Part shown: positions 38,409-61,880 of the stretch, in pieces
How the letters are laid out: each line of letters begins with the position of its first letter
Position numbering within the stretch: the stretch's first letter is position 1
Assembly: GCF_900100255.1 (NCBI RefSeq)
Contig: NZ_FMTS01000008.1
Coordinates: 1-64,000 of the forward strand
DNA from: Asticcacaulis taihuensis
Lineage (GTDB): Bacteria; Pseudomonadota; Alphaproteobacteria; Caulobacterales; Caulobacteraceae
DNA length: 64,000 bases
Direction: 5' to 3'
The notes under the pieces: generated by a model
The model's input: only the letters and a program-made list of their open reading frames with translations
What the model was told of the DNA's origin: nothing
Databases searched by the model: none
Translations under genes and position numbers: made by a program

Positions 38409-38437
38409 TTGATCATTTGGCCAACCAATTATAGGCT
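38409..38437 (+). promoter_or_regulatory. GH2 promoter with TTGG-N4-CCAA operator in the spacer
   Basis: TTGATC (38409-38414), a 17-base spacer and TAGGCT (38432-38437) form a plausible promoter. The spacer contains TTGGCCAACCAA (38417-38428), a match to TTGG-N4-CCAA, the form of UxuR/ExuR sites. A repressor bound there would block RNA polymerase. The same site lies upstream of the divergent GH115 gene. A half-site (ACCAATTA) is at 38303-38310. Confidence 0.65.
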
Positions 38438-38473
38438 CCCCAAAACGCTAAATCCCGCCGGAAAGGACTCATC

Positions 38474-40987
38474 GTGATACAGCACAGTCGCCGCGCCCTG
38501 CTCCAGACTGCCGCCCTCCTGACGGTGCCGCTGCCAAACTCTGTGACCGCTACGCCCGCCTGGAGCGCGCCACAAAAGGCTCAGCCCGCCGATGACCTCG
38601 CACCGCGCGAACGCATGTCGCTGGATTTCGGCTGGCGCTTTGCGCTGGGCCACGCCACCGAGGTGCATCGTGATTTCGACTTTGGCCTCGACCAGAAGAC
38701 CTTCGCCAAACAGGGCGCCAATGTCGCCACCGCCGCCGCACTCGATTTCGATGACAGCACCTGGCAGCCGGTAAACCTGCCGCACGACTGGGTGATCGAC
38801 CTGCCTTTCGCCAAAAACGACTATTTCATACCGCCGGCGAACCCCGAGGACGGTGATTCCGCCGCCGGTCATGGCTACAAGGCCGTGGGGCGCAAGTTCC
38901 CGGAAAACAGCATCGGCTGGTATCGCAAGGTGTTCACCCTCACCAAGGCCGACGAAGCCAAGCGCCTGACGATCGAGTTCGACGGCATTTTCCGCGACGC
39001 CACCATCATCTTCAACGGCTATATCCTGACGCGTCATGACAGCGGCTACTGCCCGGTGACCGTCGATATCACCAACTTCATCAATGTCGATGGCCCGAAC
39101 GTGCTTGTGGTCCGCGCCGACGCCACCCTGGGCGAAGGCTGGTTCTACGAAGGCGGCGGCATCTATCGCCACGTCTGGCTGGTCAAGACGGCGCGCACCT
39201 ATATCGATCAGTGGGGCGTATGCGTTCGCGCCGATACCTCCGGCAAGCTGTCGATCGACACCGATGTGACAAATGCCACCGATAGCGACCGCCAACTCCA
39301 GGTCGTCTCGACCGTGATGGACCAGGACGGCAAGGTGGTGACGCAACTGACCGGCGCCACCGATGTGAAAGCGCGCAAGGGCGCCACCCTCAGTCAGACC
39401 GGCGTCCTCTCGCCGGTACGACTGTGGTCGCTGGACGACCCGCACCGCTACACGGTGCTCACAGAGCTGAAGGACGGTGACACGGTCATCGACACCTGCA
39501 TCAGCCGGTTCGGCGTCCGCGATGTCCGCTTCGATGCCAAGGAAGGCTTCTTCCTCAATGGCCAGGGAATGAAGATCAAGGGCACTAACAATCACCAGGA
39601 CCATGCCGGCGTTGGCGTCGCCATTCCGGATGCCATGCAATACTGGCGCGTAAAGCAACTGAAAGACATGGGCGCAAACACCTGGCGCTGTTCGCACAAC
39701 CCGCCGACGACCGAACTGCTGGACGCCTGCGATGAGCTGGGCATGATGGTGATTGATGAGACCCGGATGATGACCTCGACGCCGACCGGGCTCGAACAAC
39801 TGGAAACCCTGATCCGCCGCGACCGCAATCATCCGAGCATTATCCTGTGGTCGATCGGCAATGAGGAAACGGCGCAACAGGGCACCGAACGGGGTTTAAA
39901 GATCGCCATGGACATGCGCCGACTGGTCAAGTCGCTCGATCCCATCCGGCCGGTCACGGCCGCCATGAACCACTATATGGGCCACGGCATCACGCCGGCG
40001 CTTGATGTGATGGGCTTCAACTATCATGAATCGGATATCGAGCCATTCCGCAAGCTCTACCCCGACATGCCGATCGTCGGCACCGAGACAGCCAGCGCAG
40101 TTTCGACACGCGGCGAATATGTCCGTGATGATGTGAAGGGCTATGTACGCGCCTATGATCTCGACGCCCCCTCCTATGCCAAGACGGCCGAGGCCTGGTG
40201 GACGCTGTATAATTCCAAACCCTATCTCTCCGGCGGGCTGGTATGGACCGGTTTCGACTATCGCGGCGAACCGACCCCCTTCAATCGCTGGCCGGAAATT
40301 TCCTCGCATTTCGGTATATTGGATACCTGCGGCTTCCCGAAAGACATCTATTATTACTACAAATCCTGGTGGCAGTCCGAGCCGGTCATGCACCTTTTCC
40401 CGCACTGGAACTGGGAGGGACAGGAAGGCCAGGATATCGCGGTCTGGGTCCATTCCAATCTCGACGCGGTAGAACTGTTCGTCAATGGCAAGAGCGCGGG
40501 CCAAAAGACGGTCGTGAAAGATCGCCACCTCGAATGGTCGGTGCCCTACGCGCCGGGATCGATCACCGCCTATGGCTACAGGAACGGCAAGGTGGTGATG
40601 AAGCAGACGCGCAAGACGGCGGGGCTGGCCTACAGCGTCACCCTGACGGCGGACCGCAGCAGCTTCAGTGCCGATGGGCGCGATGTCATCATGCTGAAGG
40701 CCGAGGTGTTCGACCGCGCCGGCGTCCCCGTGCCGCGGGCCGACAACCTGATCCACTTCGATGTCGATGGCCCGGCCCGTATCATCGGTGTCGGCAATGG
40801 CAATCCGACCAGCCATGAGGCCGATCATGCCACCTCGCGCATGGCCTTCAATGGTCTGGCTCAGGCGATCCTGCAAGGCCAGCACAAAGCCGCCGGCACC
40901 GTGACGGTGATCGCACGCAGCAATGGCCTCGTCTCCGGCCGGGTGACGCTCAAGGCAATGGACGTGCCCTTGCCGGCGGAAATTTAG
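38474..40987 (+). CDS. GH2 family beta-galactosidase-like enzyme
   Basis: This 837-residue exported protein has a twin-arginine signal (HSRRALLQTAALLT) and the GH2 layout: sugar-binding domain, Ig-like domain, TIM barrel, then DUF4982 and Big-like domains. The acid/base Glu464 is in SIGNEE and the nucleophile Glu538 in GTETAS. The DUF4982-containing branch holds mostly beta-galactosidases, but beta-glucuronidase or other activity cannot be excluded. The start is GTG 38474 with AAAGGA 7 bases upstream. It is transcribed alone, divergent from the GH115 operon, from a promoter carrying the locus operator. Confidence 0.9.
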   Translation: MIQHSRRALLQTAALLTVPLPNSVTATPAWSAPQKAQPADDLAPRERMSLDFGWRFALGHATEVHRDFDFGLDQKTFAKQGANVATAAALDFDDSTWQPVNLPHDWVIDLPFAKNDYFIPPANPEDGDSAAGHGYKAVGRKFPENSIGWYRKVFTLTKADEAKRLTIEFDGIFRDATIIFNGYILTRHDSGYCPVTVDITNFINVDGPNVLVVRADATLGEGWFYEGGGIYRHVWLVKTARTYIDQWGVCVRADTSGKLSIDTDVTNATDSDRQLQVVSTVMDQDGKVVTQLTGATDVKARKGATLSQTGVLSPVRLWSLDDPHRYTVLTELKDGDTVIDTCISRFGVRDVRFDAKEGFFLNGQGMKIKGTNNHQDHAGVGVAIPDAMQYWRVKQLKDMGANTWRCSHNPPTTELLDACDELGMMVIDETRMMTSTPTGLEQLETLIRRDRNHPSIILWSIGNEETAQQGTERGLKIAMDMRRLVKSLDPIRPVTAAMNHYMGHGITPALDVMGFNYHESDIEPFRKLYPDMPIVGTETASAVSTRGEYVRDDVKGYVRAYDLDAPSYAKTAEAWWTLYNSKPYLSGGLVWTGFDYRGEPTPFNRWPEISSHFGILDTCGFPKDIYYYYKSWWQSEPVMHLFPHWNWEGQEGQDIAVWVHSNLDAVELFVNGKSAGQKTVVKDRHLEWSVPYAPGSITAYGYRNGKVVMKQTRKTAGLAYSVTLTADRSSFSADGRDVIMLKAEVFDRAGVPVPRADNLIHFDVDGPARIIGVGNGNPTSHEADHATSRMAFNGLAQAILQGQHKAAGTVTVIARSNGLVSGRVTLKAMDVPLPAEI

Positions 40988-41070
40988 TATAAATTCGGAA
41001 AAGCAGCCAGCAGCCGGTGCCGCAAACCACGATGGGATGGAGAGGTGGCAATCATAAGCGGGCGCGTTTC

Positions 41071-41130
41071 TTACCCCTCCGTCTCGACGCGCTTCGCTTG
41101 CTCGACACCTCCCCTCCAAGAGGGGAGGAT
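41071..41130. repeat. Palindromic repeat, family A single unit
   Basis: TTACCCCTCCGTCTCGACGC, then GCTTGCTCGACACC and the hairpin CCTCCCCTCCAAGAGGGGAGG. It is one arm of the element found at 6510-6660 and 16877-17036. It separates the convergent GH2 and GH43 genes and may stop transcription from both. Confidence 0.6.
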
Positions 41131-41144
41131 AAAGAGCACGGGTT

Positions 41145-42110
41145 TTATTTTGGGCGCGTAACGGCCGGGGCAGTCGGGTGGACTTCATTGATCGTGCCGT
41201 CCGGATTATAGATCATCGGCTCTATGGCGATGGAGCGCCTGTAGTCGCCGCCGCCCGGCAGGAGGCTGTTATGATAGAACAGCCAGGACTTGCCCTGACG
41301 CTCGATGATCGCCTGGTGGTTGGTCGAGATCGGCAGGTAGTCGAGGATCACACCACGGTAGGCATACGGTCCCATCGGCGATTTTGACGTGGCATAGACG
41401 ATTTGCCCCGGCCAGCCCGTCGAGAAGCTGAAATAGTAGAGCCCGTTATGTTTATGGAAAAACGGCGCTTCACCGTACTTCTTCTTCGGATCATCCGACG
41501 GGAAGCCGGTGATGACCAGGTCCATGATCGGGCCGTCTGTATGGATCATGTCGCGCTTCAGCTTGACGATCTTGGGCACGCGCGTGCCGAAAGCCAGGTA
41601 AGCCTGGCCGTCGTCATCGATCAGCACGGTAGGGTCGATCGGCTCGGCGCCGGCATTGGCATCGCGTGCCTTGTCGATCAGCGCATCGCCCCTGGCATCG
41701 ACAAACGGCCCTTCCGGTGATTTCGACACGGCCACACCGATCTTGTCGCCGCCGACAGGCGCATAATAATAGTATTTGCCATTGCGATAGGCGGCTTCCG
41801 GCGCCCAGGCCTTGGCATCAGGACGCGCCCATTTGAACACGCTCACCGACAGGAAAGACCCATCGTCCTGCCAGTGTTCCAAGTCCCTGGAGCTGAAGAC
41901 GCGCCAGTCGGTTGAATCCCAGTACTTGCCGGAATTGTCCTGATCATTAGTGGCGTACAGATAGTAGCGGCCCTTGAAATAATGCGGCGACGGGTCGCCA
42001 TTGAAACGAGTGGATATCGGCGCGCCTACAAAGGCGTGGGCCGCCGCTGAAAAAGCCGCCAGTCCCAGGACGATGCCTATTGCCGTTTTCAATTTGCACT
42101 TGGTCTTCAT
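41145..42110 (-). CDS. GH43 family glycosidase, exported
   Basis: This 321-residue five-bladed propeller enzyme has a signal peptide (ending AAHA). The three catalytic acids of GH43 are visible: base Asp in NGDPSPHYF, pKa-modulating Asp in DPTVLIDD, acid Glu in YGEAPFFHK. GH43 enzymes are alpha-L-arabinofuranosidases, beta-xylosidases or galactan exo-hydrolases; the exact activity is not determined by these motifs. ATG 42110 with AGGAG upstream is used. It follows the GH92 copy 2 stop by 20 bases and is the last gene of the halogenase-GH92-GH43 operon. Confidence 0.9.
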   Translation of the reverse strand: MKTKCKLKTAIGIVLGLAAFSAAAHAFVGAPISTRFNGDPSPHYFKGRYYLYATNDQDNSGKYWDSTDWRVFSSRDLEHWQDDGSFLSVSVFKWARPDAKAWAPEAAYRNGKYYYYAPVGGDKIGVAVSKSPEGPFVDARGDALIDKARDANAGAEPIDPTVLIDDDGQAYLAFGTRVPKIVKLKRDMIHTDGPIMDLVITGFPSDDPKKKYGEAPFFHKHNGLYYFSFSTGWPGQIVYATSKSPMGPYAYRGVILDYLPISTNHQAIIERQGKSWLFYHNSLLPGGGDYRRSIAIEPMIYNPDGTINEVHPTAPAVTRPK

Positions 42111-42130
42111 AGTCTTGTGACTCCTGACGG

Positions 42131-44302
42131 TTATGGTTTCATCGCCCAACGGCCGGGCTGGCTGCCTAGCGTCAGTTCAAGGGTGCCGCCTGTCATGATT
42201 TCGGCCTGCGAAATCCAGGGTGTATTCAGCGGTCGGCCGTTCAGAGTGGCTGTCTGGATGTAGATCTGGTCCGGGCCGGCATTGCGCGCGATGAGGGTAA
42301 AGGTCTTGCCGCTTTCCAGATGGATGACGGTTTTGGGCTGATGCGGCCCGTGCAGATAGAACAGGTCGGTGCCGAGCTTCGGGAACAGGCCGATACGGTT
42401 AAAGACATAGTGCGAACTCATGGCGCCATTGTCTTCATCACCCGGATAAGCGTCGGCGGAAAACTTCTTGAAAATCTCATTGGCCCAGTAGGTACTCAGG
42501 TCGGGCCGCCCGACATTGCTGAACAGCCAGGGCGTTGCGAAGGATGGCTCGTTGGTGATATCGATCAGGCCCGATGACAGGGCATGCTGGAGACGCCTGA
42601 TGAACATATCGCGGCCGCCCATGGCGGTGACCATGCCGGGGATATCGTGCAGCATGTCGTAGGAATAGATCCACGCCGTGCCTTCGTAGAAACCGACATT
42701 GTTGTAGGTCTTGCCGTCCCAGCCCAGTTTCGGATCGATGTCCTGGAAGGCGCCATCAACCTGTTTCGGCAGGATGAAGCCGGTATAGCCGTCGCTTTCC
42801 GTTTTCGCATTCCAGACATTACGCCACATCTTCGCGCGCGAGGCCAACACCGCCGCCTCGTTTGTGTGGCCGGTGCCTTCTGCCAGCTTGCCGGCATAGA
42901 AGTCATTGAGCGCGAAGCCGATGGTGGATGACCCCGACCGGGCACGCTGGTTATCCGGCTCCGGGCTCTGGTCGCCGACCGCGAAATAGAGCTGGCTCAG
43001 GTAGCGCGGGCTGCGGCGCTGGAAGGCGTTGAAATGGGTGACGCGATAGGCGTTCTGCCAGTTGACACCGGGCACGCCGCGGATCAGCCCCTCTCCGATG
43101 ACATTATCGACCTCGTCACCGCCTTGGCCCACATGGTAGTTCCGACCCGCGATAAAGGCGGTATCGAAGGCGCCGAAGCGATCAAAGGCATGGACGATGG
43201 AAGCGATATTGCCGGCATAGTCATGCGGGCGGATCAGCGACATAAGCGGAAATTCTGTGCGGTAAGTATCCCACAGGGTATAGTAGTCGTCCCAATGGGG
43301 CGTGCCGAGATCGGCGTCGGCCTGGTCGAGCGAGCGGTCGCGCGGCTGGATGGCGGTGTGGTAAAGCGCCGTATAGAAGCGCTTCAGGTTGGCTTCCGAC
43401 ACACCGGAAATTTCGATCTGGCTGAGCGAGGTGTTCCAGGCCGCTTGCGCCGCCTGACGGACGCCGTCGAAATCCCAGCCGGGGATGTCATGATCCAGAA
43501 GGGCCTCGGCCTTCTCGGCGGAAGTGAAGGAGACGGCAATCTTCATCAGCACCGGCTTCCCGCCTTGCGCATCGAATGACCACCAGGCGCCGAGCCTTTG
43601 ATCGGCGGGGGTGGCGCCCGAGGTCGCGCCGGCAAGGGTTTCGCCGCCTTTGAATACGCCCCAGGCCTTGGGCTTCTGGTCGACCTTGGCGCAGAACCAG
43701 ATATCGACCAGGGCCGGGTTCCAGTAGCCCTTGGCCTTCACATGGCCGATGATCTTGCCTTCCGCCGGATAGAGCGTCACATCCGCCTGATCAGAGGCCA
43801 CCAGTCCCTTGATCTTGCGTGTAATGTCGAAGACGAGCTGCGCCTGATCCGTCTGCGGGAAGCTGACGCGATAGATGGCGGCATAGTGCGAGGGCGTCAC
43901 CTCGACGCGCGTCTGGTAGCGATCAAGCGTCACAGCATACAGATCGGCCGCCGCCTGCTCGCCGGACTTCTCGGAAAGGTGCGCCGCCTCATCGAACACC
44001 GGCGCACCGACCTGCGGCGATACCAGGAAGGTGCCATAGGTCGTCACCCCGCCGGAGCCTTGCGTATGCAACTGGCCAAAACCGCTGATCGGCGCCGCTG
44101 GATCATAACCGGCATTGCTGCCGGTCAGGGTTTCCGGACTGGGATGAATAGAGCCCGACGGCAGGGCCGGCCCCGGCACTGTATCGCCCTGATTGTCATT
44201 CCCCACCCCAACCATCGGATTGACGTAAGTGTAGAGCGGTACCTGAGCGTAGGCCGGAAGCGTCCATAAACAGGCGACGGCGCATAACAGGATGGTTTTC
44301 AT
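42131..44302 (-). CDS. GH92 family exo-alpha-mannosidase (copy 2)
   Basis: This 723-residue exported protein has a signal peptide (MKTILLCAVACLWTLPAYAQ) and GH92 blocks: YVNPMVGVGNDNQGDTVPGP, LWDTYRTEFPLMSLI, the acid-site motif DITNEPS, and GDEDNGAMSSHYVFNRIG. The usual GNEP acid motif reads TNEPS and the loop after it differs from copy 1, so specificity probably differs. It starts 16 bases after the halogenase-like stop and precedes GH43, forming one transcript. Confidence 0.92.
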   Translation of the reverse strand: MKTILLCAVACLWTLPAYAQVPLYTYVNPMVGVGNDNQGDTVPGPALPSGSIHPSPETLTGSNAGYDPAAPISGFGQLHTQGSGGVTTYGTFLVSPQVGAPVFDEAAHLSEKSGEQAAADLYAVTLDRYQTRVEVTPSHYAAIYRVSFPQTDQAQLVFDITRKIKGLVASDQADVTLYPAEGKIIGHVKAKGYWNPALVDIWFCAKVDQKPKAWGVFKGGETLAGATSGATPADQRLGAWWSFDAQGGKPVLMKIAVSFTSAEKAEALLDHDIPGWDFDGVRQAAQAAWNTSLSQIEISGVSEANLKRFYTALYHTAIQPRDRSLDQADADLGTPHWDDYYTLWDTYRTEFPLMSLIRPHDYAGNIASIVHAFDRFGAFDTAFIAGRNYHVGQGGDEVDNVIGEGLIRGVPGVNWQNAYRVTHFNAFQRRSPRYLSQLYFAVGDQSPEPDNQRARSGSSTIGFALNDFYAGKLAEGTGHTNEAAVLASRAKMWRNVWNAKTESDGYTGFILPKQVDGAFQDIDPKLGWDGKTYNNVGFYEGTAWIYSYDMLHDIPGMVTAMGGRDMFIRRLQHALSSGLIDITNEPSFATPWLFSNVGRPDLSTYWANEIFKKFSADAYPGDEDNGAMSSHYVFNRIGLFPKLGTDLFYLHGPHQPKTVIHLESGKTFTLIARNAGPDQIYIQTATLNGRPLNTPWISQAEIMTGGTLELTLGSQPGRWAMKP

Positions 44303-44318
44303 ACGTCTTTCCGCTTCA

Positions 44319-45830
44319 TCATTCAGGCACGGTCAGGTTGGCCGCGCAATGTTGGGCAATGAAGTCGCTATGGCTCGGCATGTAGTCGCAGCACCGGGCA
44401 ATGACATCGCGCATTTCCGCCAGCCACTTATTCAAGGCTGCCTCGTCAAGTGTCATGGCCAGGGGATCAGGCGCCGCGGGCCGAAGGCCCTGCCCCCACA
44501 TCACCGCCAGCCAGCTCTGAATGCGGAACTGTTCTCCGGGAATTTCCTGAATACGCCCGCGCGACTGGAAGAGATCTATCCTGTTTTGCAGGCTGTCGGG
44601 AATGGACATGGACGCGCAGTAACGCCAGAAATCAGAGTCCCTGCGCTCGCCGGCGCGATAGTGCAGGATGAGAAAATCGCGCACGACCTCATATTCGCGC
44701 CCCATATCGGCATTGTAGAGGTCGCGGTCCGCATCGGAAAATCCCTTGTCCGGGAAGAGATATTGCAGATAGGCGATGGCCTTCTGGATCAGCATGATGG
44801 CGGTCGATTCCAGCGGCTCCAGGAAACCGGCGGCCAGGCCGATAGCAACGCAGTTTTTTTCCCAGACCTTTTTTCGCCGGCCGGTCCGGAAGCGGATCAG
44901 GCGCGGATCGGCCAGGGGCGGCCCTTCGAGATTGGCCACCAACTGATCGACGGCCTGCGCCTCGTTCATGAAAGCGCTGGCGAAAACCAGGCCATTGCCA
45001 TCGCGGTGCTGCAACGGGATGCGCCACTGCCAGCCCGAAGCACGCGCCGTAGACCGCGTGAAGGGCAGCGGCGCGCCATCGCGGGCGGTCGGGACGGCCC
45101 AGGCGCGATCGCATGGCAGCCAGTGCGACCAGTCCTCGAACCCGACACCCAGGGCCTCGCCCAGAAGCAGCGACCGGAAGCCTGTGCAGTCGATAAAGAT
45201 ATCGCCATCAACGGACCGCCCCTCGTTCAGGGACAGACCTTCGATCGAACCGTCCGCCGTCAGCCGAACCTGCTCGATCCGGCCCTCAATACGCTGGACG
45301 CCGGCAGCTTCCGAAATCTGGCGCAAATACCTGGCGTAAAGGCTGGCGTCGAAATGGAAGGCATAGGTGAGGTCCGCCAGAGGCGAATTGGCCCCGGAAG
45401 GTCGCATGAATTTGCCGTGCCGGGCAGCCAGGCTTTGCAGATTATAGGCTTCCAGGGTGTCAGACGGATTGGCAAGCGCGTGCCGCAGCCAGACACTGTG
45501 AAATGGCAAGGGGCCGTAATCCCGGCCAGGCGCCCCAAAGGGATGGTGGTAGGCCCGTCCGGCTCCACCCCAGTTGACGAACTCGATACCGAACTTGAAC
45601 GTCCCTCTGGTGAATCGCAGAAAGTCGTCTTCGTCGATGCCCATGACCTGATTAAACACATGCAGGTAGGGGGTTGTCGCCTCCCCTACCCCGACAATGC
45701 CGATCTCATCGCTTTCCACCAGAACGATCTCAACCGGCGTCCCGTGCAACAGCCGGGCGAACCAGGCGGCCGTCATCCAGCCGGCCGTGCCACCGCCGGC
45801 GACGACAATTTTTCGGATAGGTTCAGGCAT
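44319..45830 (-). CDS. Tryptophan halogenase-like flavoprotein
   Basis: This 503-residue protein belongs to the flavin-dependent tryptophan halogenase family (PrnA, RebH). The FAD motif GGGTAGW is at residues 12-18, the essential lysine aligns at Lys79 (TFKFGIEF), the halogenase WxWxIP motif is present as WQWRIP, and Glu341 in EPLEST matches the second catalytic acid. It is first in an operon with GH92 and GH43, directly downstream of a TonB-dependent receptor. Members in Caulobacter-Xanthomonas glycan loci have no known substrate; a halide reaction on a glycan-derived aromatic or a flavin hydroxylation is speculative. Confidence 0.88.
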   Translation of the reverse strand: MPEPIRKIVVAGGGTAGWMTAAWFARLLHGTPVEIVLVESDEIGIVGVGEATTPYLHVFNQVMGIDEDDFLRFTRGTFKFGIEFVNWGGAGRAYHHPFGAPGRDYGPLPFHSVWLRHALANPSDTLEAYNLQSLAARHGKFMRPSGANSPLADLTYAFHFDASLYARYLRQISEAAGVQRIEGRIEQVRLTADGSIEGLSLNEGRSVDGDIFIDCTGFRSLLLGEALGVGFEDWSHWLPCDRAWAVPTARDGAPLPFTRSTARASGWQWRIPLQHRDGNGLVFASAFMNEAQAVDQLVANLEGPPLADPRLIRFRTGRRKKVWEKNCVAIGLAAGFLEPLESTAIMLIQKAIAYLQYLFPDKGFSDADRDLYNADMGREYEVVRDFLILHYRAGERRDSDFWRYCASMSIPDSLQNRIDLFQSRGRIQEIPGEQFRIQSWLAVMWGQGLRPAAPDPLAMTLDEAALNKWLAEMRDVIARCCDYMPSHSDFIAQHCAANLTVPE

Positions 45831-49446: not shown

Positions 49447-49531
49447 AAAATATTTTTCTGTATTAATTCAGCATATTAACGCATTTATTGCCGCTTCAAA
49501 AAATTGACACATACTTGACGAATTTCACAAA

Positions 49532-53188: not shown

Positions 53189-54078
53189 CTGTTCAGACCA
53201 TTATCGGCGCCGTGGGCCAGCAGCAGCGCCCCTTCCACGGCATCCTGTTCGGCCGGCGTCAGAAGGCGTCTCGCGTCCTCATCCAGCCAAGGCAGGATAG
53301 GTTCTGCCAGACCACCGACCAGGGCGATGCGTGACGCGCCGATATCACGCAGACGGGCAATATAGCGGCCAATATCATCGGCCACGTCCCGTACAAGTCC
53401 GGTAGCGATCGGGTCGCCGGCATCCGCGGCTTCCATGATCATGGGGGCGAGCGTGCCGAAATCGCTGGGCGTGGCCGTGGTGACGAAAGCGATCACATCG
53501 GCCGGATTGCCGCCGAAGGAGGCGATGACTTCGCGCGTAAAGGCGCTGGACGGCGCGACCTGGTCATGACCGCGCAGAGCCGCACGCAGGGCCGCACGTC
53601 CCAGACCGGCGGCGGAGCCATCATCTCCCACCTCGAAGCCCCAGCCACCGACGGCGTGGCCCACACCATCCACAAAGGCATAGCCGGCACTGCCCGTGCC
53701 GGCAATCAGTATGGCGCCGTCGCGTCCGGAAAAGGCCCCCAGACAGGCGGCGTGGGCATCGCTCGCCGCGAAAATACTGCCAAAGTCTGGCCCGGAATCG
53801 ATCGTCACCTGGGCATTCATCTCGGTGGTAATGCCAGCCAGTCCCATGCCAATGTGGATATCCGGCAAATCGGCGTGGGAAAGCTGGGCCTGCGCCAGGG
53901 CTTCGTCGACGGCGACCATAATATTCTGCCAGACCGTGACAAGGCCCAGACGGATATTGGAGGCGCCGCCAAGTCCCTCGCCCAGGATTTTTCCGGCACG
54001 GTTTTTCAGGCGTGCGCGGCATTTGGTGCCGCCGCCATCGATGCCGATATAATAGAGAGGGGTATTAGCCTGTAACAT
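53185..54078 (-). CDS. N-acetylglucosamine kinase, BadF/BcrA ATPase family
   Basis: This 297-residue ASKHA-fold kinase phosphorylates GlcNAc to GlcNAc-6-phosphate. Motifs: phosphate 1 IGIDGGGTKCRARL, adenosine/phosphate 2 ILIAGTGSAGYAF, and GGWGFEVGDDGSAAGLGRAAL. It is the usual partner of NagX and NagR in proteobacteria that import free GlcNAc. Its stop overlaps the next gene start, and its start is 11 bases after the NagX-like stop. NagA and NagB are not in this window. Confidence 0.88.
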   Translation of the reverse strand: MLQANTPLYYIGIDGGGTKCRARLKNRAGKILGEGLGGASNIRLGLVTVWQNIMVAVDEALAQAQLSHADLPDIHIGMGLAGITTEMNAQVTIDSGPDFGSIFAASDAHAACLGAFSGRDGAILIAGTGSAGYAFVDGVGHAVGGWGFEVGDDGSAAGLGRAALRAALRGHDQVAPSSAFTREVIASFGGNPADVIAFVTTATPSDFGTLAPMIMEAADAGDPIATGLVRDVADDIGRYIARLRDIGASRIALVGGLAEPILPWLDEDARRLLTPAEQDAVEGALLLAHGADNGLNR

Positions 54079-54088: not shown

Positions 54089-55201
54089 TCAAATCTTGAT
54101 AATGATATTCTTGCGGTCGAGCAGGAAGCCTAAGCCCCAGCAGACCAGCATATAGACGATGGCGCAGATCAGCGAACCGAGCGCACCGGGAATAACCGCC
54201 TGGAACAGGTGAATACCGATCCAGTCATAGAGGCCCTCCCCGTTCACCTTGATCAACTGGAGCACGGTGACGAACAGTTCGGAGAACAGGTAGATGGCAA
54301 GCGGATTTCGCCCGAAGATTTCAAAGAATTTAGTGCCGCGCGTTTGTCCGGCGATCTCGACATAGCTGATCAGGCCACCCAGGATCACCAGGTCTATACC
54401 GATGGTCAGCAGCACGAAGGAGCTGGTCCAGATACGTTTGGCCAGCGGGAAACCCAGGCTCCACAGCAGGCCTGCCGCGACGAACACCGCACCACCGATC
54501 AGCAGGTTGCGCACCAGAAGCGACTTGTTTTCACTGCGGCTGATATAGCGGCCCGCCAGATAGCCGGCGATCACATTGACGATGGCAGGCAAGGTGCTGA
54601 GCAGGCCCTCCGGATCGTAACCATGCCCTTTGCGATACATATGGTTGATGCCGAGCACGGCCTGATCGAGCAAGGCCCCGGCATTGCCAAGCGGCGTCAG
54701 TTGCTGGCCGGGCACGCCGAACATCATCAGGATCGACCAGTAACCGACCAGAAGCAAAACGCACAGCGCAATCAGATATTTGACCGACAAATAGCGGCAG
54801 GCAATGGCGGCAATGCCAAAGCACAGGGCGATGCGTTGCAGCACGCCCATAATGCGGGTCTCGCCGATCGGATTGAACGCCCAGCTACCATCGCCCTGCT
54901 GATGCACGAACGGGAACCAGTACATCAGGTAGCCGAGCAGGAAGATGATCCCCGTGCGCTTCAACACCTTCAGCAGATAGTCCTGGTGGCTGACGCCGGG
55001 CTTCATGGCGAAGCTCATGGCGTTGCCGACCGCGAACAGGAAGGAGGGGAAAACAACATCGGCCAGGGTGAAACCGAACCACTGGGCGTGCTGCAGGGTG
55101 GCGAAAGGCTCCGCTCCGGCGCCGGCCGTATTGACCACGATCATGATGCAGACGGTCAGGCCGCGGAAGACATCCAGGGATTTATAGCGCGCGGGCTTCA
55201 T
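54089..55201 (-). CDS. nagX: NagX-like acyltransferase-family membrane protein (DUF5009)
   Basis: This 370-residue protein with about ten membrane helices belongs to COG4299. The opening RYKSLDVFRGLTVCIMIVVN is diagnostic for NagX/DUF5009 proteins of nag operons (Xanthomonas, Shewanella) and distantly matches HGSNAT. Its function in GlcNAc use is untested; transport or acetylation of amino sugar at the inner membrane are proposals. ATG 55201 overlaps the GH89 stop (ATGA), and the GlcNAc kinase follows by 11 bases, so it works on the GH89 product. Confidence 0.85.
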   Translation of the reverse strand: MKPARYKSLDVFRGLTVCIMIVVNTAGAGAEPFATLQHAQWFGFTLADVVFPSFLFAVGNAMSFAMKPGVSHQDYLLKVLKRTGIIFLLGYLMYWFPFVHQQGDGSWAFNPIGETRIMGVLQRIALCFGIAAIACRYLSVKYLIALCVLLLVGYWSILMMFGVPGQQLTPLGNAGALLDQAVLGINHMYRKGHGYDPEGLLSTLPAIVNVIAGYLAGRYISRSENKSLLVRNLLIGGAVFVAAGLLWSLGFPLAKRIWTSSFVLLTIGIDLVILGGLISYVEIAGQTRGTKFFEIFGRNPLAIYLFSELFVTVLQLIKVNGEGLYDWIGIHLFQAVIPGALGSLICAIVYMLVCWGLGFLLDRKNIIIKI

Positions 55202-57480
55202 GCGCAAAGCTCCAGCAGGGTTTTGATATCGGCCAGCGGATCGGCGGGCACATGGCGGGTGTAGGCGGTATCGGCCTTGACCCACTCATGTTCCCAGTCG
55301 GTAATGGCGGCCGTAAAAGCGGTCTGGTCGAAGGGTGTTTGCGCGATCACAGACTGGCGCAAGCTTGCTAGGAACTGCGTCCAGCGCGGCAGGTAGAAAT
55401 CGGCGTAAAGCCCCTGCCAGGCCTTCGACGCATAGTCGTTGAGATTGCCCTTGCCGCCCCACACCGTCACCTGCGCCTTTGCGTTCTCGACATAGTAGGC
55501 GCTTTCGGCCGGCGTGTCGCCATAGGCGCGAGCGTCGTCAATCCAGCTCGACAGGGTTTCCTGCTGCGCGCCCAGAAGGGCATCAACGCGACGGGCCAAG
55601 TCGCTCAGATGCTTGACGGCCGCATCGCCGCCCGCCAGATCGCCGGCCTTATAAGCACCGATCGCCGCCTGCAGGCTGGCGTCGATCTCGAAACCGGCCA
55701 GATGGCGCGCGGCATCGATGATATCGTTGCGGAACAGCTTCGAGCCACCAAGCTCAGTACCAAGTGCCAGAAGCTGCGCCAGCGCCTGTTTCAGCAGCAA
55801 GGGATTGCCTGGCAGGGGCGGAAATTCCGTTGCATCGATTGTTGGGCGCTTGAAGAACAGATAGGCACCTGCCCGGCTTTTCCACCAGCGCGGCGTCCAG
55901 TAGCGCGTCTGATAGATGGCGGTTTGCAGATTACCCCAGGCCGCCAGCAGGGCTGGCGAGGTCTGGCCGTAGCGGGCGCGGGTGTAGACCTTCAGCCAAT
56001 CGGCAGGCGCCGCATCTTCCCAGGCCAGGTCGTAGAGATATTCATAAACGACGCTGTTGCTGTGCAGGCCCTCGGGAAAAACGCCGAAGCCTTTGAGATT
56101 GCGCGTCTTGTCGCTGGCCCTGATGGCCGCCAGGTCGGTGCGGTAGAAATCGAGATCGCCATAGACCGGGTTTGAGCCACCGTAATTATGGACATAGCCG
56201 TAGATCCACGACTTTCCCTTGAAGGCGTCGGCGCGGGTCCAGACATCCGGGTAACGGTCGTTACCGATATCGAGCACCATCAGCTTGTCATCGGGGACGT
56301 GGCTCAGGAAGGCGCCGATGGCATCGCTCGACCAGAAATCACGGTCGGCGCCGAAGAGCCAGCCCTGCATCACCCATACAGCATCGGGCCGCGCCTGGCG
56401 AATGGACTGATAGATGGCGGCGCCGTAATCTGCCAGCCGCGCAGCCTTGACCGCCGGATCGACGGCCTCGGCGGCTTTCACGTTGGCCGTGGCGTCGCCA
56501 TAGCTGGCCTTAGCGGCATCGGAACCATCCGCAGAAATCGGCGGGAGCATTTCATTGAAAGAGTCGGCGAGGTAATATTGCCCTTCGCCATAGGTTTCGG
56601 TGTAAAGCGCGATGAAGCGCCCCGCCAGTTTGGCGAACAGGGGATCGGCCGGATCGAGCCAGTAGGTTTCGTGGAAGCCTTCCCAGGCGCGCATCTTGTA
56701 AATCCGCGCGTCGGGATGTTTTTCGGCGAAGGCCTTGGGCACATAGCCGCCGAAAGCCGGCAGGATCGGCATCATGCCCAGTTCGCGCATCCGGCTAAGA
56801 ATACGGCGTTGCAGGTCGCGTTTCTTGACGATCCATGCCTGCGGTACTGGCGTGTCATAGCCTTCGATATTGCCCATGCGCTGCCAGGGCGTAAAGGCGG
56901 GCCCCGAGAAATAGGCGGCCAGTTCGGCGTCGCTCAGGCCATTTTCACGCCATAGCGCCTGCCAGACAAATTCCTGGCCTTCCATGGCCAGCGGCATATC
57001 AATGCCATGCAGGGCCATCCAGTCAATCTCGCGCTCCCAGCGCGGCCAGCCCCACCAGGGCGTGGTATAGCCGAAAGTGCAGGTATTCATATAGACGCGA
57101 TGGCGGAAGGGCGTTTCGACCCGGCGCTCCGCCGTGGCCGGCCATTGGTCCGGCACCGCAATACGGTCACCCTCCCAACTCACTTCGGCCAGGCCATTGT
57201 TTTTGAGATAGCTGTAGATGCCGCGTGTCAGCGCCACAGGACTTGAACCGGTCACCATCAGCTTGCCGCCACGCGTGGCCACACTGTACCAGGGTCGTGG
57301 GCCGGACATAGGAGACAGTTTGAAAATAACCGATTTTGCCGTCCCGCCAATCAGTCGCGTCAGTACTCCACTGGCGGCCGTCGCCTCACCGGCCTGCGCA
57401 GCTTCCCCCGGAAGCAGCGCCAAGCCGGCCAGGCCGAGGGACTGCAGGAGCGCCTGGCGACGTGAGAGCGGGTAAGGCAT
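55198..57480 (-). CDS. GH89 family alpha-N-acetylglucosaminidase, exported
   Basis: This 760-residue enzyme is related to human NAGLU and releases terminal alpha-linked GlcNAc, as on mucin-type or heparan-like glycans. A twin-arginine signal (SRRQALLQSLGLAGLALLPG) precedes the N-terminal domain, the TIM-barrel with catalytic block LADSFNEMLPP and GFGVFPEGLHSN, and a helical C-terminal domain. I use ATG 57480; ATG 57501 adds seven residues with no better ribosome site. It heads the operon with NagX, GlcNAc kinase and regulator. Confidence 0.92.
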   Translation of the reverse strand: MPYPLSRRQALLQSLGLAGLALLPGEAAQAGEATAASGVLTRLIGGTAKSVIFKLSPMSGPRPWYSVATRGGKLMVTGSSPVALTRGIYSYLKNNGLAEVSWEGDRIAVPDQWPATAERRVETPFRHRVYMNTCTFGYTTPWWGWPRWEREIDWMALHGIDMPLAMEGQEFVWQALWRENGLSDAELAAYFSGPAFTPWQRMGNIEGYDTPVPQAWIVKKRDLQRRILSRMRELGMMPILPAFGGYVPKAFAEKHPDARIYKMRAWEGFHETYWLDPADPLFAKLAGRFIALYTETYGEGQYYLADSFNEMLPPISADGSDAAKASYGDATANVKAAEAVDPAVKAARLADYGAAIYQSIRQARPDAVWVMQGWLFGADRDFWSSDAIGAFLSHVPDDKLMVLDIGNDRYPDVWTRADAFKGKSWIYGYVHNYGGSNPVYGDLDFYRTDLAAIRASDKTRNLKGFGVFPEGLHSNSVVYEYLYDLAWEDAAPADWLKVYTRARYGQTSPALLAAWGNLQTAIYQTRYWTPRWWKSRAGAYLFFKRPTIDATEFPPLPGNPLLLKQALAQLLALGTELGGSKLFRNDIIDAARHLAGFEIDASLQAAIGAYKAGDLAGGDAAVKHLSDLARRVDALLGAQQETLSSWIDDARAYGDTPAESAYYVENAKAQVTVWGGKGNLNDYASKAWQGLYADFYLPRWTQFLASLRQSVIAQTPFDQTAFTAAITDWEHEWVKADTAYTRHVPADPLADIKTLLELCA

Positions 57481-57664
57481 AGGCGAAATCCCAAAATCCA
57501 TTCAGTATAGACAGAAAGTCCGGACAGCGTAATGGCACACATTACACTGTCCGGGTTTGACCCGTGGAGGGAAGCAGGGGGAGGAAATACTTTAAACCTC
57601 TCCCAACGGGCCATGCAGGACGAAAGCGCAGGGCTTAGATGGCGACCTCACCCCGCGCGCTCGC

Positions 57665-60325
57665 CTACATCTTGTATTGAAGGCTGATATAATAAGAGGA
57701 ACCGGTGACGCTGGTCATCTGCCAGCGGCTCGCGATGTCCTTATACGCTTCTTCCTTTTCATTGGTGATGTTGAGCGCACCGAAGGACGCGCTGAGGCGA
57801 CTGTTGATATTATAACCGAGTGTCAGGTCGTAGAGGGTGCGGCCGCGGATCGTGTGGCCTTCACGTGCGAAGAAGCTTTCCGCACTGGTCTGTGTGTAGG
57901 CGCTGCGATAATTGGCAGACAGACGGGCGCTGAAGGTCTTGTTTTCCCAATAACCTGTCGCGTTAAATGTGTTTTCCGACAGATTGGCGAGATGGAAACC
58001 GGATGTGCCCTTGCTGGACGGCTCGACGTGCGTATAGTTGCTGGTTACACCGAAGCCCTTAACGGGAAGCCAGTGGTCGAACGATTGCTGCCAGTTAATT
58101 TCGAAGCCCTTGATCTTGACGACCGAGGTATCGTTCTTTGTTTCAGTTATGTCGTAGATCGCGCCCGTCGTGGAGACACAGTCGCCGTCACTGTTGGTCG
58201 AAAGCGCCGTTCCATCGAACGATGCCGGACAAACCAGGGACGAATAGGTGCCGTTCTTGACGTCTTTCAAGAAGCCTGAAAGGCTCAACCCGTTGCCATC
58301 ACCATAGTACCACTCAATACCGAGATCGAACTGGTTGGCCGTCAGAGGTTTCAGGGTGGCTGCACCCAGCGCAATGGTATTGACCGTTACACCGTCCGAA
58401 TTCGTACCGGTGCTGATCGTCGTCGCCAGATTGGAATTGGTGTCGAGAATCGGCCGGACCAGAACCTTGGCCGCTGCCGCACGGATAAGCAGGTCAGGCG
58501 TCAGGTTGAAAACAAAGTTGGCCGACGGCAGGACGTTGTCGTAATCGGTTGGCGTCGAATAGGTGCCCGTTACCAGCGAGACATTCGAATTCACTGGATT
58601 GGAACCCGACGCCAGATAGCCGTTCACCAACTGCTTGGTGTCCTCGTAGCGGATACCGAGATTGCCGTGGAATGGCACGTTGAAAACATCGCCCTTCAGA
58701 TTGGCCATTGCGTAGACCGACGAGATGTTACGGCTGACGCTGTAGCTGCCTGTTGGATCGAAGACGGTCGGCACATCGATGCCCGATGCGGCCAAAGCTG
58801 CCCGGTAAGCGATGATATCCGGCACCGCCCAGGTCCGGTCAACCGTATCCGCACCATCCAGGAAGTTGTCTACGATCGTGGTGGATACCGGGCTGGCCGG
58901 CGTATTGGCGGCCGACAGGCTTCCATCTAGGTCACGGCGGGTCGAATAACGCGACAGGGTATCGCGCTTGACCTTGCCGCCAAACGACACCGAGCTCAAT
59001 ATGCCCATGTCGATCCAGCGCGTGGCATCGAACTGGGCAGCGACCTCATCGGAGATATTGGCGTGCTGGGCGCCGTCCGGATATTCGTTACGCGTCAGTA
59101 GGGCGCTGTCATAGGACGCCGCATCGGACAGATCGTTCGAAGTGGTGAATTTGATATCGTTCGGGTCGCTCATATCAAGGGTCGACGAGGCGATATTGAT
59201 GCCGAGAATGGCGGCCTCTTCGGTCAGGTAGGCCTTGCCCTGCGTATAGTGCAGCACACCCTTGAGGGTCCAGTTGTCGAAGCCGGTCCACTTGACAGTG
59301 CCGGTCAGGGCCTCGCTCGACAGATTGCGGGTTTCCAGTTGACGGTTATTTTCCGCGGTATAGTTGGTCTGGGTTGTCTTGAGGGCGGTGAGGCCGTCAC
59401 TGTCCTGGGTCGTGATATTGCTCTGACTGAACAGGAAAACCTGTTGAATGGTATCATAACGGGTATTATCTTTTGAATGGATCGCCGAAAGGCCAAGTTC
59501 CAGGCCGGCAACCGGCCGGTACTGAACGGCAACATTGAACTGCTGACGCAGAGTGTCACGATCAATGCGGCGATAGCGGATACGGCGAGGCGTATAGAGT
59601 GTCGTTCCGTCGGTATTGGCGGAAGTAAACCAACGGTCCATAAACAGATAGTCGGCGCGGTCACTCAGTTCCTGATAATTGGCGCCGAGGAATACACCGA
59701 GCTTCCCGCCGTCAAATTGGTCAACATAAGAAATGCTGGCTTTTGGGGTTATTCCGCCCTTGGCATTGTTCGACTTCTGCCCCTTAACCGAGACAACCAG
59801 TTCGCGGCCCTTCTTGTCGAGCGGGTGAACGGTCTCGATATTTACAGTGCCGGCCAGACCGCCGGCGTCCATATCTGCGGTTGGGGATTTGTAAACCTGA
59901 ATGCTGCTGGCCAGTTCGGTTTGAATGATGTCGTAACGGAAGCCGTCGTTAAAATCGGCGCTTGCGAAACTTTGGCCGTTGACGGTCGTCATGGCATACT
60001 GCGGACCAAGCCCACGAATACTGATCGTCGCACCGCGACCATTGACGTTCGCCATTTGCACGCCCGGAATGCGCTGAATCGCTTCGGCAATGTTTTCGCT
60101 GGGGAACTTGCCAAGGTCTTCAGATGAAATACCATCAGAAACCCGCGTGTCATTCTTCTTGTTCTTCAGAGCCGAGGCGAGGCTCTTGCGAAAGCCGGTC
60201 ACGACCACTTCGGTGGCATCATCGGCGGGCGCTGCGGGCGAGGCCGCTTCCTGGGCCATGGCCGAAGACACCGTGAGCAGGCCCGCGAGAGCCGTGCTGA
60301 GCAAGGCGTAGTTCTTGAACGTCAT
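57665..60325 (-). CDS. TonB-dependent receptor (copy 2)
   Basis: This 886-residue outer-membrane receptor starts with a signal peptide (ending SSAMAQ), has the plug motif EVVVTGFRKSLASALKNKK, the EAIQRIPGVQMANVNGRG block, and ends in YYISLQYKM. It has the same plug type as copy 1 and differs by 120 residues in length. It lies upstream of the GH89 operon on the same strand (GH89 starts 164 bases after its stop), so it may import alpha-GlcNAc-containing glycans. Its upstream region has several locus operators. Confidence 0.95.
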   Translation of the reverse strand: MTFKNYALLSTALAGLLTVSSAMAQEAASPAAPADDATEVVVTGFRKSLASALKNKKNDTRVSDGISSEDLGKFPSENIAEAIQRIPGVQMANVNGRGATISIRGLGPQYAMTTVNGQSFASADFNDGFRYDIIQTELASSIQVYKSPTADMDAGGLAGTVNIETVHPLDKKGRELVVSVKGQKSNNAKGGITPKASISYVDQFDGGKLGVFLGANYQELSDRADYLFMDRWFTSANTDGTTLYTPRRIRYRRIDRDTLRQQFNVAVQYRPVAGLELGLSAIHSKDNTRYDTIQQVFLFSQSNITTQDSDGLTALKTTQTNYTAENNRQLETRNLSSEALTGTVKWTGFDNWTLKGVLHYTQGKAYLTEEAAILGINIASSTLDMSDPNDIKFTTSNDLSDAASYDSALLTRNEYPDGAQHANISDEVAAQFDATRWIDMGILSSVSFGGKVKRDTLSRYSTRRDLDGSLSAANTPASPVSTTIVDNFLDGADTVDRTWAVPDIIAYRAALAASGIDVPTVFDPTGSYSVSRNISSVYAMANLKGDVFNVPFHGNLGIRYEDTKQLVNGYLASGSNPVNSNVSLVTGTYSTPTDYDNVLPSANFVFNLTPDLLIRAAAAKVLVRPILDTNSNLATTISTGTNSDGVTVNTIALGAATLKPLTANQFDLGIEWYYGDGNGLSLSGFLKDVKNGTYSSLVCPASFDGTALSTNSDGDCVSTTGAIYDITETKNDTSVVKIKGFEINWQQSFDHWLPVKGFGVTSNYTHVEPSSKGTSGFHLANLSENTFNATGYWENKTFSARLSANYRSAYTQTSAESFFAREGHTIRGRTLYDLTLGYNINSRLSASFGALNITNEKEEAYKDIASRWQMTSVTGSSYYISLQYKM

Positions 60326-60461
60326 AGTCTATCCCCTTTTAGATTAAAGTCACGAACAGCCGGCGTTTAGGTATGCGTGGCCGGTCTGCTTCTGACGTGA
60401 CAGGTGTCATGTTTTCAGCCTTCAAACCAATTTGGCGGGAGACGATACCATTAGGACCGTA

Positions 60462-60513
60462 TTGGAGCGCCAATTGTGAAATTGAGACTATGGCTGCCAA
60501 ATTGGCCTGTCAA
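60462..60513 (-). promoter_or_regulatory. Promoter and operator cluster of TonB receptor copy 2
   Basis: Minus strand: TTGACA (60508-60513), a 17-base spacer and TAGTCT (60485-60490). The spacer contains the palindrome CCAAATTGG (60497-60505). TTGGAGCGCCAA (60462-60473), an exact TTGG-N4-CCAA site, covers the region just after the expected transcript start. Near-match TTGGCCTGTCAA overlaps the -35. Confidence 0.6.
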
Positions 60514-60735
60514 TTTCATTATTGGCAGCATGACAACTTTTTGTCGAAGCTCTACAAATTTCAAATTTGTTTAACAGTGAGATGTTTTCCGAGTTTTCCG
60601 GATTTAATATTAAATTTTAGATATTTATGTGCATTTAAATGAGAAATTCGCCCAATTTCCCGCCCACATATTGGTCAACCTCTGTGATAAAAATACTATA
60701 TTCATCGACCAGATGGGCAAGAAATCACACCAAAA

Positions 60736-60764: not shown

Positions 60765-60948
60765 TAATGCCAGCCAGACCGAAAGTTGGGCATAGAACCA
60801 CCCGATTTTTTCCTCGTCAGAGAGACCTGCGGGGCGCGACCTGGCAACCGCCGCATCGGGGGTCATGAGACAGATGAGAATGATACCCTATCCGGCTCTG
60901 ATGCAGCAGGCCAATGCTCTAAATGCACCTTTCAGAAAGGGCTCTAAG

Positions 60949-61779
60949 TCAGACGCTGACCTTCAGCCTGCGACGACCGGCGCGGCCACGGCCACCCGCT
61001 TTTTCCGCGCCGCCCTCAGCCACACTAAAACCTTCGCCACCGGCGAGCAGTTGTTTCACGGCGTCCATATGCTGCCACATCGCGACATAGGCGCCATCTC
61101 CATCACGGCTGCGGATGGCGCTTGCCAGGCGGGCATGATCTTCAACCCATCGGTCACGATTCTGGGCGCTGTGCAATCTTGGACCAGCCGCTTTCCAGAA
61201 CGGGTCGTTATCCCGTCGCATCCATAATTGTCCAACCATGATGGTCAGTTCTGCGTTCTGCGTGGCGGCGGCAATCGCCATATGCACCTGCAGCTCAAGC
61301 TTTTCCCTGACATCCGCAAAGTCGGCCCGGCCATAATCATCGCATGCCTGCTGGATATGAAGAATATCGTCTTCGGTAACCTGGGTGGCGGCCAGGCGGG
61401 CGATATGGCTTTCAAACCACTGGTGTGCCTGTATCAGCTCGAAAGGTCCGCCGGCAGGCAGTAGCTCCCAGGCCGGACGTGACTTGATCTCGACGACCTC
61501 AACAGGCTGTATTTCGTAGGCCTTGCGGGTGATGTAGATTCCGGAGCCCTGTCGGGATTGTACGAGCCCCTTCACTTCGAGCATGACCAGAGCGTCACGA
61601 ATCACGGCCCGCCCGACGCCATAAACCTCAGCCAGTTCACGCTCGGTCGGCAATTTTCCGGAGGCCCGGAATTCACCGGTGCGAATGCGTTGCAGCAGGG
61701 AATTCCCCACGCTCTGGTAAGCGCGGACCTCCTTGTCTGCCTCAGTCTTTGCCGTCAGAATATCACCCGACTCCGTCAT
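60949..61779 (-). CDS. FadR-type GntR transcriptional regulator (copy 2)
   Basis: This 276-residue regulator is a paralogue of copy 1 (49790-50533). Winged helix LPTERELAEVYGVGRAVIRD and QSRQGSGIYITR, FCD domain with LQVHMAIAAATQN and AMWQHMDAV; the recognition helix (GRAVIRDALVMLEVKGLV) is the same in both, so both should bind the same operators. A short basic C-terminal tail (RGRAGRRRLKVSV) is unique to this copy. Start ATG 61779. It is transcribed toward the second TonB receptor; an imperfect operator lies upstream at 61863-61880. Confidence 0.87.
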   Translation of the reverse strand: MTESGDILTAKTEADKEVRAYQSVGNSLLQRIRTGEFRASGKLPTERELAEVYGVGRAVIRDALVMLEVKGLVQSRQGSGIYITRKAYEIQPVEVVEIKSRPAWELLPAGGPFELIQAHQWFESHIARLAATQVTEDDILHIQQACDDYGRADFADVREKLELQVHMAIAAATQNAELTIMVGQLWMRRDNDPFWKAAGPRLHSAQNRDRWVEDHARLASAIRSRDGDGAYVAMWQHMDAVKQLLAGGEGFSVAEGGAEKAGGRGRAGRRRLKVSV

Positions 61780-61862
61780 GCCTGTTCGCCCCTGTCGCAA
61801 ACTCTGCCTAAATATCCTGCATCCCCGCCGGGGCACTTGTATCTCAATTCTACACTATATCG

Positions 61863-61880
61863 AAATTGGTTAAACAATTT
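61863..61880. promoter_or_regulatory. Imperfect operator upstream of regulator copy 2
   Basis: AAATTGGTTAAACAATTT is an 18-base imperfect palindrome with TTGG-N4-ACAA at its core, one base off the locus operator. Its place 84 bases before the start codon suggests autoregulation. Confidence 0.5.

Follow-up and report, generated by a model that had tools for sequence, protein, structure and literature searches.

The 64,000-nt stretch of Asticcacaulis taihuensis DNA analysed here (contig NZ_FMTS01000008.1, positions 1 to 64,000, called the window) carries a 30-kb glycan locus with genes for two TonB-dependent receptors (TBDR1 and TBDR2), a set of glycosidases and two transcriptional regulators, R1 and R2. 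This locus very probably forms a dedicated repressor regulon, in which R1 and R2, sister repressors of the GntR/FCD type, would act on the palindrome ATTGGYNNRCCAAT. The operator has the spacing of the UxuR sites and relaxed inner bases. In the following, relatives are denoted by G, contigs by C and loci by L numbers.

Palindromic sites and their conservation

The window holds six exact copies of TTGG-N4-CCAA (38417, 49435, 49532, 60462, 60736 and 60753), the same six that an earlier reading of this DNA, the initial annotation, had placed in promoter regions. All of them lie outside genes, in the GH115/GH2, TBDR1/R1 and TBDR2/R2 spacers, and their number is above chance, since shuffled versions of the window held 1.22 copies on average and never more than 4. 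A second test was confined to five intergenic stretches, picked because they carry sites of the initial annotation; there, the 6 exact copies compared with a mean of 0.07 and a maximum of 3 in 5000 Markov shuffles. In the same stretches, TTGG-Nk-CCAA had zero matches for k=1-3 and k=5-10, and the three matches for k=0 were nested in N4 sites.

The initial annotation had proposed a genome-wide count and a comparison of intergenic and coding DNA. In the 3,967,832 bases of the genome, TTGG-N4-CCAA was found at 27 places, compared with 33 for the backward control. The motif is therefore not common overall, but it is concentrated at the glycan locus, where 6 of the 27 lie. The six locus sites are intergenic, whereas, of the 21 elsewhere, 18 are within an open reading frame (ORF) of 100 aa or more, including one ORF of just 103 aa, and 3 are not. 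Judged by eye, A/T occupied both flanking pairs at 5/6 sites in the locus and at 2/21 elsewhere. When the flanked form AATTGG-N4-CCAATT was searched with up to one mismatch, nine places were found genome-wide, seven in this locus (38415-61879) and two on contig C8 inside ORFs of 269 and 1001 aa. For seven of nine sites in 0.76% of the genome the binomial probability is ~5e-14, a rough guide because the site form was picked after looking.

Matches to TTGG-N4-CCAA with one mismatch were not in excess in the window (27 versus 26.86 expected by chance), and degenerate sites therefore count only with flanks or conservation. The degenerate site annotated at 61863 is present as TTGGTTAAACAA with one mismatch, at position 61866, whereas the one at 52219, TTGGTTATCCCG, has two mismatches and is weak. 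Two one-mismatch sites with A/T flanks, 60500-60515 and 49661-49676, were absent from the initial annotation. The latter, AATTGGATGACCGATT at the start of R1, also occurs in G109, which is weak as conservation with an R1 that is 95% identical.

A search with R1 gave matches in 46 of 149 genomes of the family; of the 23 that are listed as the own genome or as the same genus, 21 were matched. The spacing was compared in 23 loci, fetched around the regulator from 18 other Asticcacaulis genomes; they include the close relative G109 and are not independent. TTGG-N4-CCAA occurred 38 times in 47,725 intergenic bases and 5 times in 376,725 coding bases. The spacings N1-3 and N5-8 were found 0-1 times in intergenic DNA and N0 13 times, a form nested in TTGGTTGGCCAA. 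Chance as the origin of the sites is ruled out by the window shuffles, the Markov shuffles, the N4 spacing in the relatives and the 7/9 clustering.

The flanked form WATTGGNNNNCCAATW (WATTGGN4CCAATW) was present at 34 places in 25 genomes of the genus, compared with 13 for the backward control. The context was read for 29 of them, and 27 adjoin a gene for a receptor, an R-type regulator, a glycosidase or a mannonate dehydratase (ManD); the other two are G137:C15 and G089:C1:3245985. Several of these glycosidases are LacZ-type GH2 enzymes, just 23-24% identical to the GH2 of the window. Sites were also found with genes that have moved: in G114 with the phosphatase and GH92a genes on another contig (products 75 and 90% identical to those of the window), in G133 and G099 with the relocated GH51-type gene, which carries an exact copy at its 5' end, and in G145 with the relocated TBDR2. 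In G080 and G124 the operator is at ManD. The regulon over the glycan locus that the initial annotation had claimed is upheld by the clustering of the flanked sites together with their conservation at orthologous genes.

The site in front of the TBDR2 and GH89 genes, O1, is more conserved than the other sites. Its exact 15-mer was found at 21 places in 15 of the 25 genus genomes, with none for the backward control, and 19 of these copies are at GH89 or TBDR loci. GH89 (PF05089) is encoded in 19/25 genomes, and none of the six genomes without it has O1. O1 holds a -35-like box, TTGACA (60508-60513), reading toward TBDR2 and GH89, and a -10-like CATAGT lies close by at 60487-60492. When the window and 19 loci were scanned, 18 O1 promoters were obtained in 14 genomes, which have TTGACAGGCCAATT in common, followed by an element such as [CT]ATAGT. 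In 10/18 another exact site (O2) was 40-42 bp from the start of TTGACA, and in 13/18 an upstream exact site (O3) was at -226 to -251 bp. The distance of O3 was kept in either orientation of R2, pointing to O3 (window, G068, G089) or the opposite way (G085, G029), so O3 probably serves the receptor promoter. At R2 itself, a promoter scan recovered the promoter TTGAAA-18-TATAGT over the 61864 site. Stray copies of the O1 15-mer were seen at L147 9905 and L148 9020; the one of G145 lies 5' of an lptC-type gene, with an exonuclease gene on its other side, and the one of G133 is between genes of like size.

From this anatomy a mode of control can be proposed. R1 and R2 would bind the ATTGGYNNRCCAAT palindromes, and since O1 contains the -35 box and O2, 40 bp further on, covers the transcript start, a bound dimer would block RNA polymerase. 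With the operators 234-251 bp upstream, two dimers could loop the DNA, and autoregulation would follow from the operators that overlap the R2 promoter and the R1 start codon. The inducer that releases R1 and R2 is probably a uronate or else a uronic-acid product derived from the imported glycan. Derepression would then provide the two outer-membrane receptors, the exo-glycosidases (GH89, GH115, GH92, GH2, GH51/43), the phosphatase and the proteins handling N-acetylglucosamine (GlcNAc).

The regulators and their operator

The two FadR-type regulators noticed in the initial annotation were recovered as R1 and R2. Both scored above the Pfam cut-offs for the GntR helix-turn-helix (HTH) and the FCD domain, which places them in the FadR subfamily of GntR, and the search of the genome gave 12 FCD proteins in all, these two included. 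Among the NCBIfam models they score best on UxuR and ExuR, known from E. coli and other gammaproteobacteria, but the equivalog cut-offs of 442 and 396 bits were not reached (R1 193.5 and 192.9 bits, R2 162.4 and 169.4 bits, respectively). R1 and R2 are thus closest to UxuR/ExuR, yet far under the level set for true orthologues. A tree of 49 rows placed the 24 Asticcacaulis rows in one clade (98/100), but the attachment of this clade to UxuR, ExuR and others is unsettled, with long branches present. UxuR and R1 have the C-terminal motif MWxHxENV in common. R1 and R2 probably have a UxuR-like way of working, but by their scores they are not UxuR/ExuR equivalogs.

The sites of the UxuR group have the same spacing, with GT-N2-AC (PMC4494728). 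To compare the inner bases, 35 distinct intergenic sites were tallied from the window and 28 loci, excluding L069, L070 and L079-L082 and including the relaxed sites of G080 and G124. The inner bases were C 37, T 25, A 8 and G 0. An inner T was thus found at 25/70 half-sites, and T..A together at only 2/35 sites, in contrast to the TGGT-N2-ACCA of UxuR. The initial annotation had equated the form with the hexuronate sites of E. coli, but only the spacing agrees: TTGGN4CCAA was absent from the two MG1655 stretches read, and the nearest MG1655 matches upstream of uxuA, uxuR and exuR keep the inner T/A, which is relaxed to Y/R here. The targets differ as well, being glycan receptors and glycosidases here.

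In E. coli FadR, the bases are contacted by Thr-44, Arg-45 and Thr-46 (PMC4494728). The recognition helix is TRTVVRE in E. coli UxuR, GRTVIRD (T-type) in 7 R1-type proteins of the 24 Asticcacaulis rows, and GRAVIRD or GRAVVRD (A-type) in R1 and R2 of the window and 15 other Asticcacaulis rows. TGGT..ACCA is kept, or nearly so, at sites by T-type regulators, but these sites were chosen with a score that rewards this T. In G080 and G124 the only regulator found (E<=1e-30) is T-type, yet the sites are of the relaxed ATTGGTCGGCCAAT form. The link between helix and operator is therefore weak, which slightly lowers the confidence in the pairing of regulator and site. In G141, which has an A-type regulator, the near-operator at the binding-protein gene has an inner T..A. 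Co-evolution of the helix T-to-A change with the relaxed operator is accordingly unproven. R1 of the window is outside the clade that has both helix types, with a weakly supported fork of its own (88/31), and a parallel change of the helix residue is possible.

A different palindrome is found at the ManD gene of this genome (C9:29336). It is ATTGGTATGACCAAT at C9:29197, N3-spaced and thus one base longer, near the FCD protein L005. In 9 of 11 family-homologue loci from other genera the top-scoring palindrome was also N3-spaced. These hexuronate-type palindromes (C9:29197; L052-L062) have similar ATTGGT-like half-sites and FCD regulators nearby, but differ by the extra central base and by the regulator helix, SRPSLRE or SRPTVRE. 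For the hexuronate genes of this genome, control by a general UxuR regulon is ruled out at uxaC, as no site was found in the 30 kb read around it, and ManD has the N3 palindrome instead. The uxaC gene follows a LacI-type regulator gene, and PF03786 had no member in the genome.

Several observations weigh against control of the locus by R1 and R2. O2 is missing from 8/18 and O3 from 5/18 of the O1 promoters. In the window, the distance between the -35 and the -10 is 15 for CATAGT, an uncertain -10, and the promoter scan did not have the O1 -35/-10 pair among its results. Two of the 21 O1 copies (G145, G133) are off GH89/TBDR loci, four GH89-bearing genomes (G080, G141, G124, G150) have no exact O1, and the 34 places of the flanked form against 13 in the control indicate that single sites can also appear by chance. 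The relatives do not count as independent cases, and their loci were fetched for carrying the regulator. In some R2-type proteins the C-terminal motif common with UxuR has changed. What the sequences show are the sites, their conservation, the gene content and the regulator family; binding, repression, looping, inducer and substrate are inferred from these.

Some of these points would fit an operator of another transcription factor, or an O1 that is mainly a conserved promoter, with R1 and R2 merely nearby: the TTGACA box is within O1, the most conserved site, two copies are away from glycan loci, and the co-occurrence is partly built in when loci are found via the regulator. However, palindromes without a -35 box also hold the exact N4 spacing and follow their genes to other contigs, sites are present at the 5' ends of both R genes in the window, and the spacing is that of the UxuR group (PMC4494728). 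We regard this explanation as unlikely. Classical UxuR orthologues controlling glucuronoxylan use, as the initial annotation had proposed, are improbable, since despite the top family scores, the GH115 in the locus and a CE15-like esterase ~17 kb off, the scores of 162-194 bits are far from the 442 and 396 required, the GH115 is of the BtGH115A type discussed below, and neither the xylan-type GH115 on C10 nor the 30 kb at uxaC has a site. Nor are GH89, GH92 and NagK known to take part in the use of xylan.

Gene content and inducer

The operators, the regulators and the genes of the locus are listed in Table 1. The flavoprotein gene stays by TBDR1 in several relatives. Outside the locus, the window encodes a second HGSNAT-domain membrane protein (8460-9719), a glucuronyl-esterase-like protein (PF22244, 17523-18923) with no exact TTGG-N4-CCAA site nearby, a member of the PF14350 'Beta protein' family (13030-14265) and two adjoining DUF885 proteins (1221-5041).

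Table 1. Operators, regulators and genes of the glycan locus in the window
Feature	Position	Strand	Remarks
Operator O1 AATTGACAGGCCAATT	60500..60515	-	TBDR2 and GH89 gene promoter
Operator O2 TATTGGAGCGCCAATT	60460..60475		holds exact site 60462; ~14 bp downstream of -10-like box
Operator O3a TTGGTTTGCCAA	60736..60747		234 bp upstream of O1
Operator O3b TTGGCCAACCAA	60753..60764		251 bp upstream of O1
Operator AATTGGTTAAACAATT	61864..61879		at R2 promoter; overlaps TTGAAA-18-TATAGT
Operator TTGGTTGGCCAA	49435..49446		between TBDR1 and R1
Operator AATTGGTTATCCAAAT	49530..49545		between TBDR1 and R1; holds exact site 49532
Operator-like AATTGGATGACCGATT	49661..49676		across R1 start codon
Operator ATTTGGCCAACCAATT	38415..38430		between divergent GH115 and GH2; holds exact site 38417
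Weak site TTGGTTATCCCG	52219..52230		two mismatches; upstream of GH51-type gene
Regulator R1	49667..50533	+	GntR HTH and FCD; recognition helix GRAVIRD
Regulator R2	60949..61836	-	GntR HTH and FCD; recognition helix GRAVIRD
TonB-dependent receptor TBDR1	46037..49060	-	TIGR01782
TonB-dependent receptor TBDR2	57665..60325	-	TIGR01782
GH89 alpha-N-acetylglucosaminidase (NAGLU)	55198..57501	-	nearest solved match 4xwh
NagX/HGSNAT-like transmembrane acetyltransferase	54089..55285	-	
NagK-like N-acetylglucosamine kinase	53185..54078	-	
GH51-type alpha-L-arabinofuranosidase	50590..52155	-	
Tryptophan-halogenase-like flavoprotein (PF04820)	44319..45830	-	adjoins TBDR1
GH92 alpha-mannosidase b	42131..44302	-	
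GH43	41145..42149	-	
GH2 beta-galactosidase	38474..40987	+	GalA equivalog, above cut-off
GH115, BtGH115A-like	35449..38244	-	nearest BtGH115A (5by3)
GH92 alpha-mannosidase a	33089..35443	-	
AppA/Agp-like histidine acid phosphatase (phytase family)	31884..33137	-	

The neighbours of the R1-type genes bear on the inducer. R1-type orthologues adjoin GH115 in G133, G145 and G114 and are one gene off in G080 and G124, and both genes are in one locus in the window and in G109. In G014 the R1 orthologue is in a cluster with uxuA, a beta-glucuronidase-like gene and a transporter-like gene, and its neighbours in G137 are a UxuA gene and one for a transporter-like protein. These neighbours favour glucuronate or its product, and a uronate is a plausible inducer for R1 and R2. 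Against this, the GH89 loci of G068, G089, G085, G060 and G052 keep the operator with no GH115 in the 20 kb read. The GH115 of the locus is therefore not the only source of inducer; a GH115 is present somewhere in 25/25 genus genomes. The inducer named in the initial annotation, glucuronate, is plausible, judging from the GH115 and uxuA neighbours and from the operator at ManD, whereas its proposed source, glucuronoxylan, is unlikely.

The substrate

The substrate of the regulon may be the sugar head of the plant glycosyl inositol phosphorylceramides (GIPC), or the inositol-phosphate glycans released from GIPC, which we put forward tentatively, at rather less than even confidence. The GIPC core is GlcNAc(alpha1-4)GlcA(alpha1-2)inositol-phosphoryl-ceramide, where GlcA is glucuronic acid, with mannose (Man), galactose (Gal) and arabinose (Ara) further out, and GIPC make up to 40% of the total sphingolipids (PMC8099651). 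A form with glucosamine (GlcN) also exists (PMC9113257). During Botrytis infection, inositol phosphate glycans are freed from GIPC, most likely by a fungal phospholipase C (PMC11496612). For each unit of the head the locus encodes a candidate enzyme family: GH51/43 for Ara, GH2 for Gal, GH92 for Man, GH89 for alpha-GlcNAc, GH115 for alpha-GlcA and the AppA-like phosphatase for inositol phosphate. The NagX/HGSNAT-like acetyltransferase might re-acetylate GlcN so that GH89 can cut, and R1 and R2 would sense the glucuronate from the GIPC head.

The two GH115 enzymes of the genome are of different types. The second one, on C10, is nearest to 4zmh, 4c90 and two chains annotated as xylan alpha-1,2-glucuronidase, with BtGH115A last, and the genome-wide site scan had no exact TTGG-N4-CCAA site near it. 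Since the GH115 of the locus is nearest to BtGH115A and the xylan-type paralogue lacks a site, glucuronoxylan is an unlikely substrate. BtGH115A is described as inactive on xylan, and its reported activity on arabinogalactan is odd because GlcA is beta-linked there (PMC9063842). On the GIPC proposal, the BtGH115A-like clade would consist of inositol alpha-1,2-glucuronosidases.

Inositol-catabolism genes are contiguous with the regulon in five of the 19 GH89-bearing genomes (G145, G141, G080, G124, G150), and some of these arrangements may stem from one ancestor. G145 has homologues of iolG, C, D, E and B leading up to R1-GH115-TBDR1-R2-GH89, ~700 bp from R1. The iolB, E, D, C and G genes of G141, all five above an equivalog cut-off, are between GH115-TBDR1 and GH43-NagX-GH89-R2, and in G080, G124 and G150 the iol genes come after GH89-TBDR1. 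A methylmalonate-semialdehyde dehydrogenase gene (iolA-type) and a sugar-binding protein gene are beside GH115 in G080, G124 and G141. The best solved relative of the sugar-binding protein is 4irx, which we take to be the Caulobacter inositol-binding protein. Upstream of its gene, an IolR-type box GGAA-N6-TTCC was found in all three genomes with a one-mismatch operator close by, in G080 within the over-long start of a predicted ORF. Near-operator and box together were seen at L081 3559, L082 16561 and L151 9410. Such a box has been described for Caulobacter (PMC2597717), and dual control of the sugar-binding-protein gene is possible. No iol genes were present in the stretches read of the other 14 GH89-bearing genomes, including the own genome, where the stretches read extend on contig C18 to base 144,000 and the rest was not searched.

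The same regulon could also serve an arabinogalactan protein or a cell-wall glycan mixture rather than an inositol glycolipid, which we consider possible, though rather less likely than not. The GH2, GH43, GH51 and BtGH115A-like GH115 families would fit, as would the arabinogalactan activity reported for BtGH115A, the fucosidase- and galactosidase-type genes added in relatives, and the lack of inositol genes in the stretches read of the own and 13 further GH89-bearing genomes. However, arabinogalactan leaves GH89, NagX, NagK, the two GH92 and the phytase-like phosphatase unexplained, and also the contiguous inositol-catabolism genes of five relatives, and its GlcA is beta-linked (PMC9063842). 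The genes added in relatives are for alpha-fucosidase (PF01120), alpha-galactosidase-type (PF16499) and GH95 proteins (L071 1880-3541, L073 7730-9652, L087 7343-9721), so the side sugars may vary by species.

Two known systems resemble parts of the locus. Bacterial GlcNAc salvage by NagX and NagK uses the same families, but both proteins are below the equivalog cut-offs here and are joined with GH89, GH115, GH92 and a UxuR-type operator. In the human heparan pathway, NAGLU acts together with HGSNAT. The locus is alike in having a GH89, matched best by the alpha-N-acetylglucosaminidase 4xwh, presumably the human enzyme, with an adjoining HGSNAT_cat protein. It differs in being bacterial and in having an alpha-glucuronidase-family enzyme and, in some relatives, inositol genes beside it, and no sulfatase was found among the locus proteins scanned.

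The regulon joins enzyme families that are rarely linked to one substrate, and in this way the motif becomes a hypothesis on the substrate. A literature search, in which most subscription journals were not covered, had no title on bacterial use of GIPC among the matches listed. As its genome combines two paralogous regulators of the UxuR type with a hexuronate-type palindrome of N3 spacing, A. taihuensis is also a test case for the separation of operators by a single base. If the GIPC proposal is true, the locus would encode a bacterial pathway for dismantling a major lipid class of the plant plasma membrane. It would also give the BtGH115A clade a natural alpha-linked substrate and resolve the arabinogalactan puzzle.

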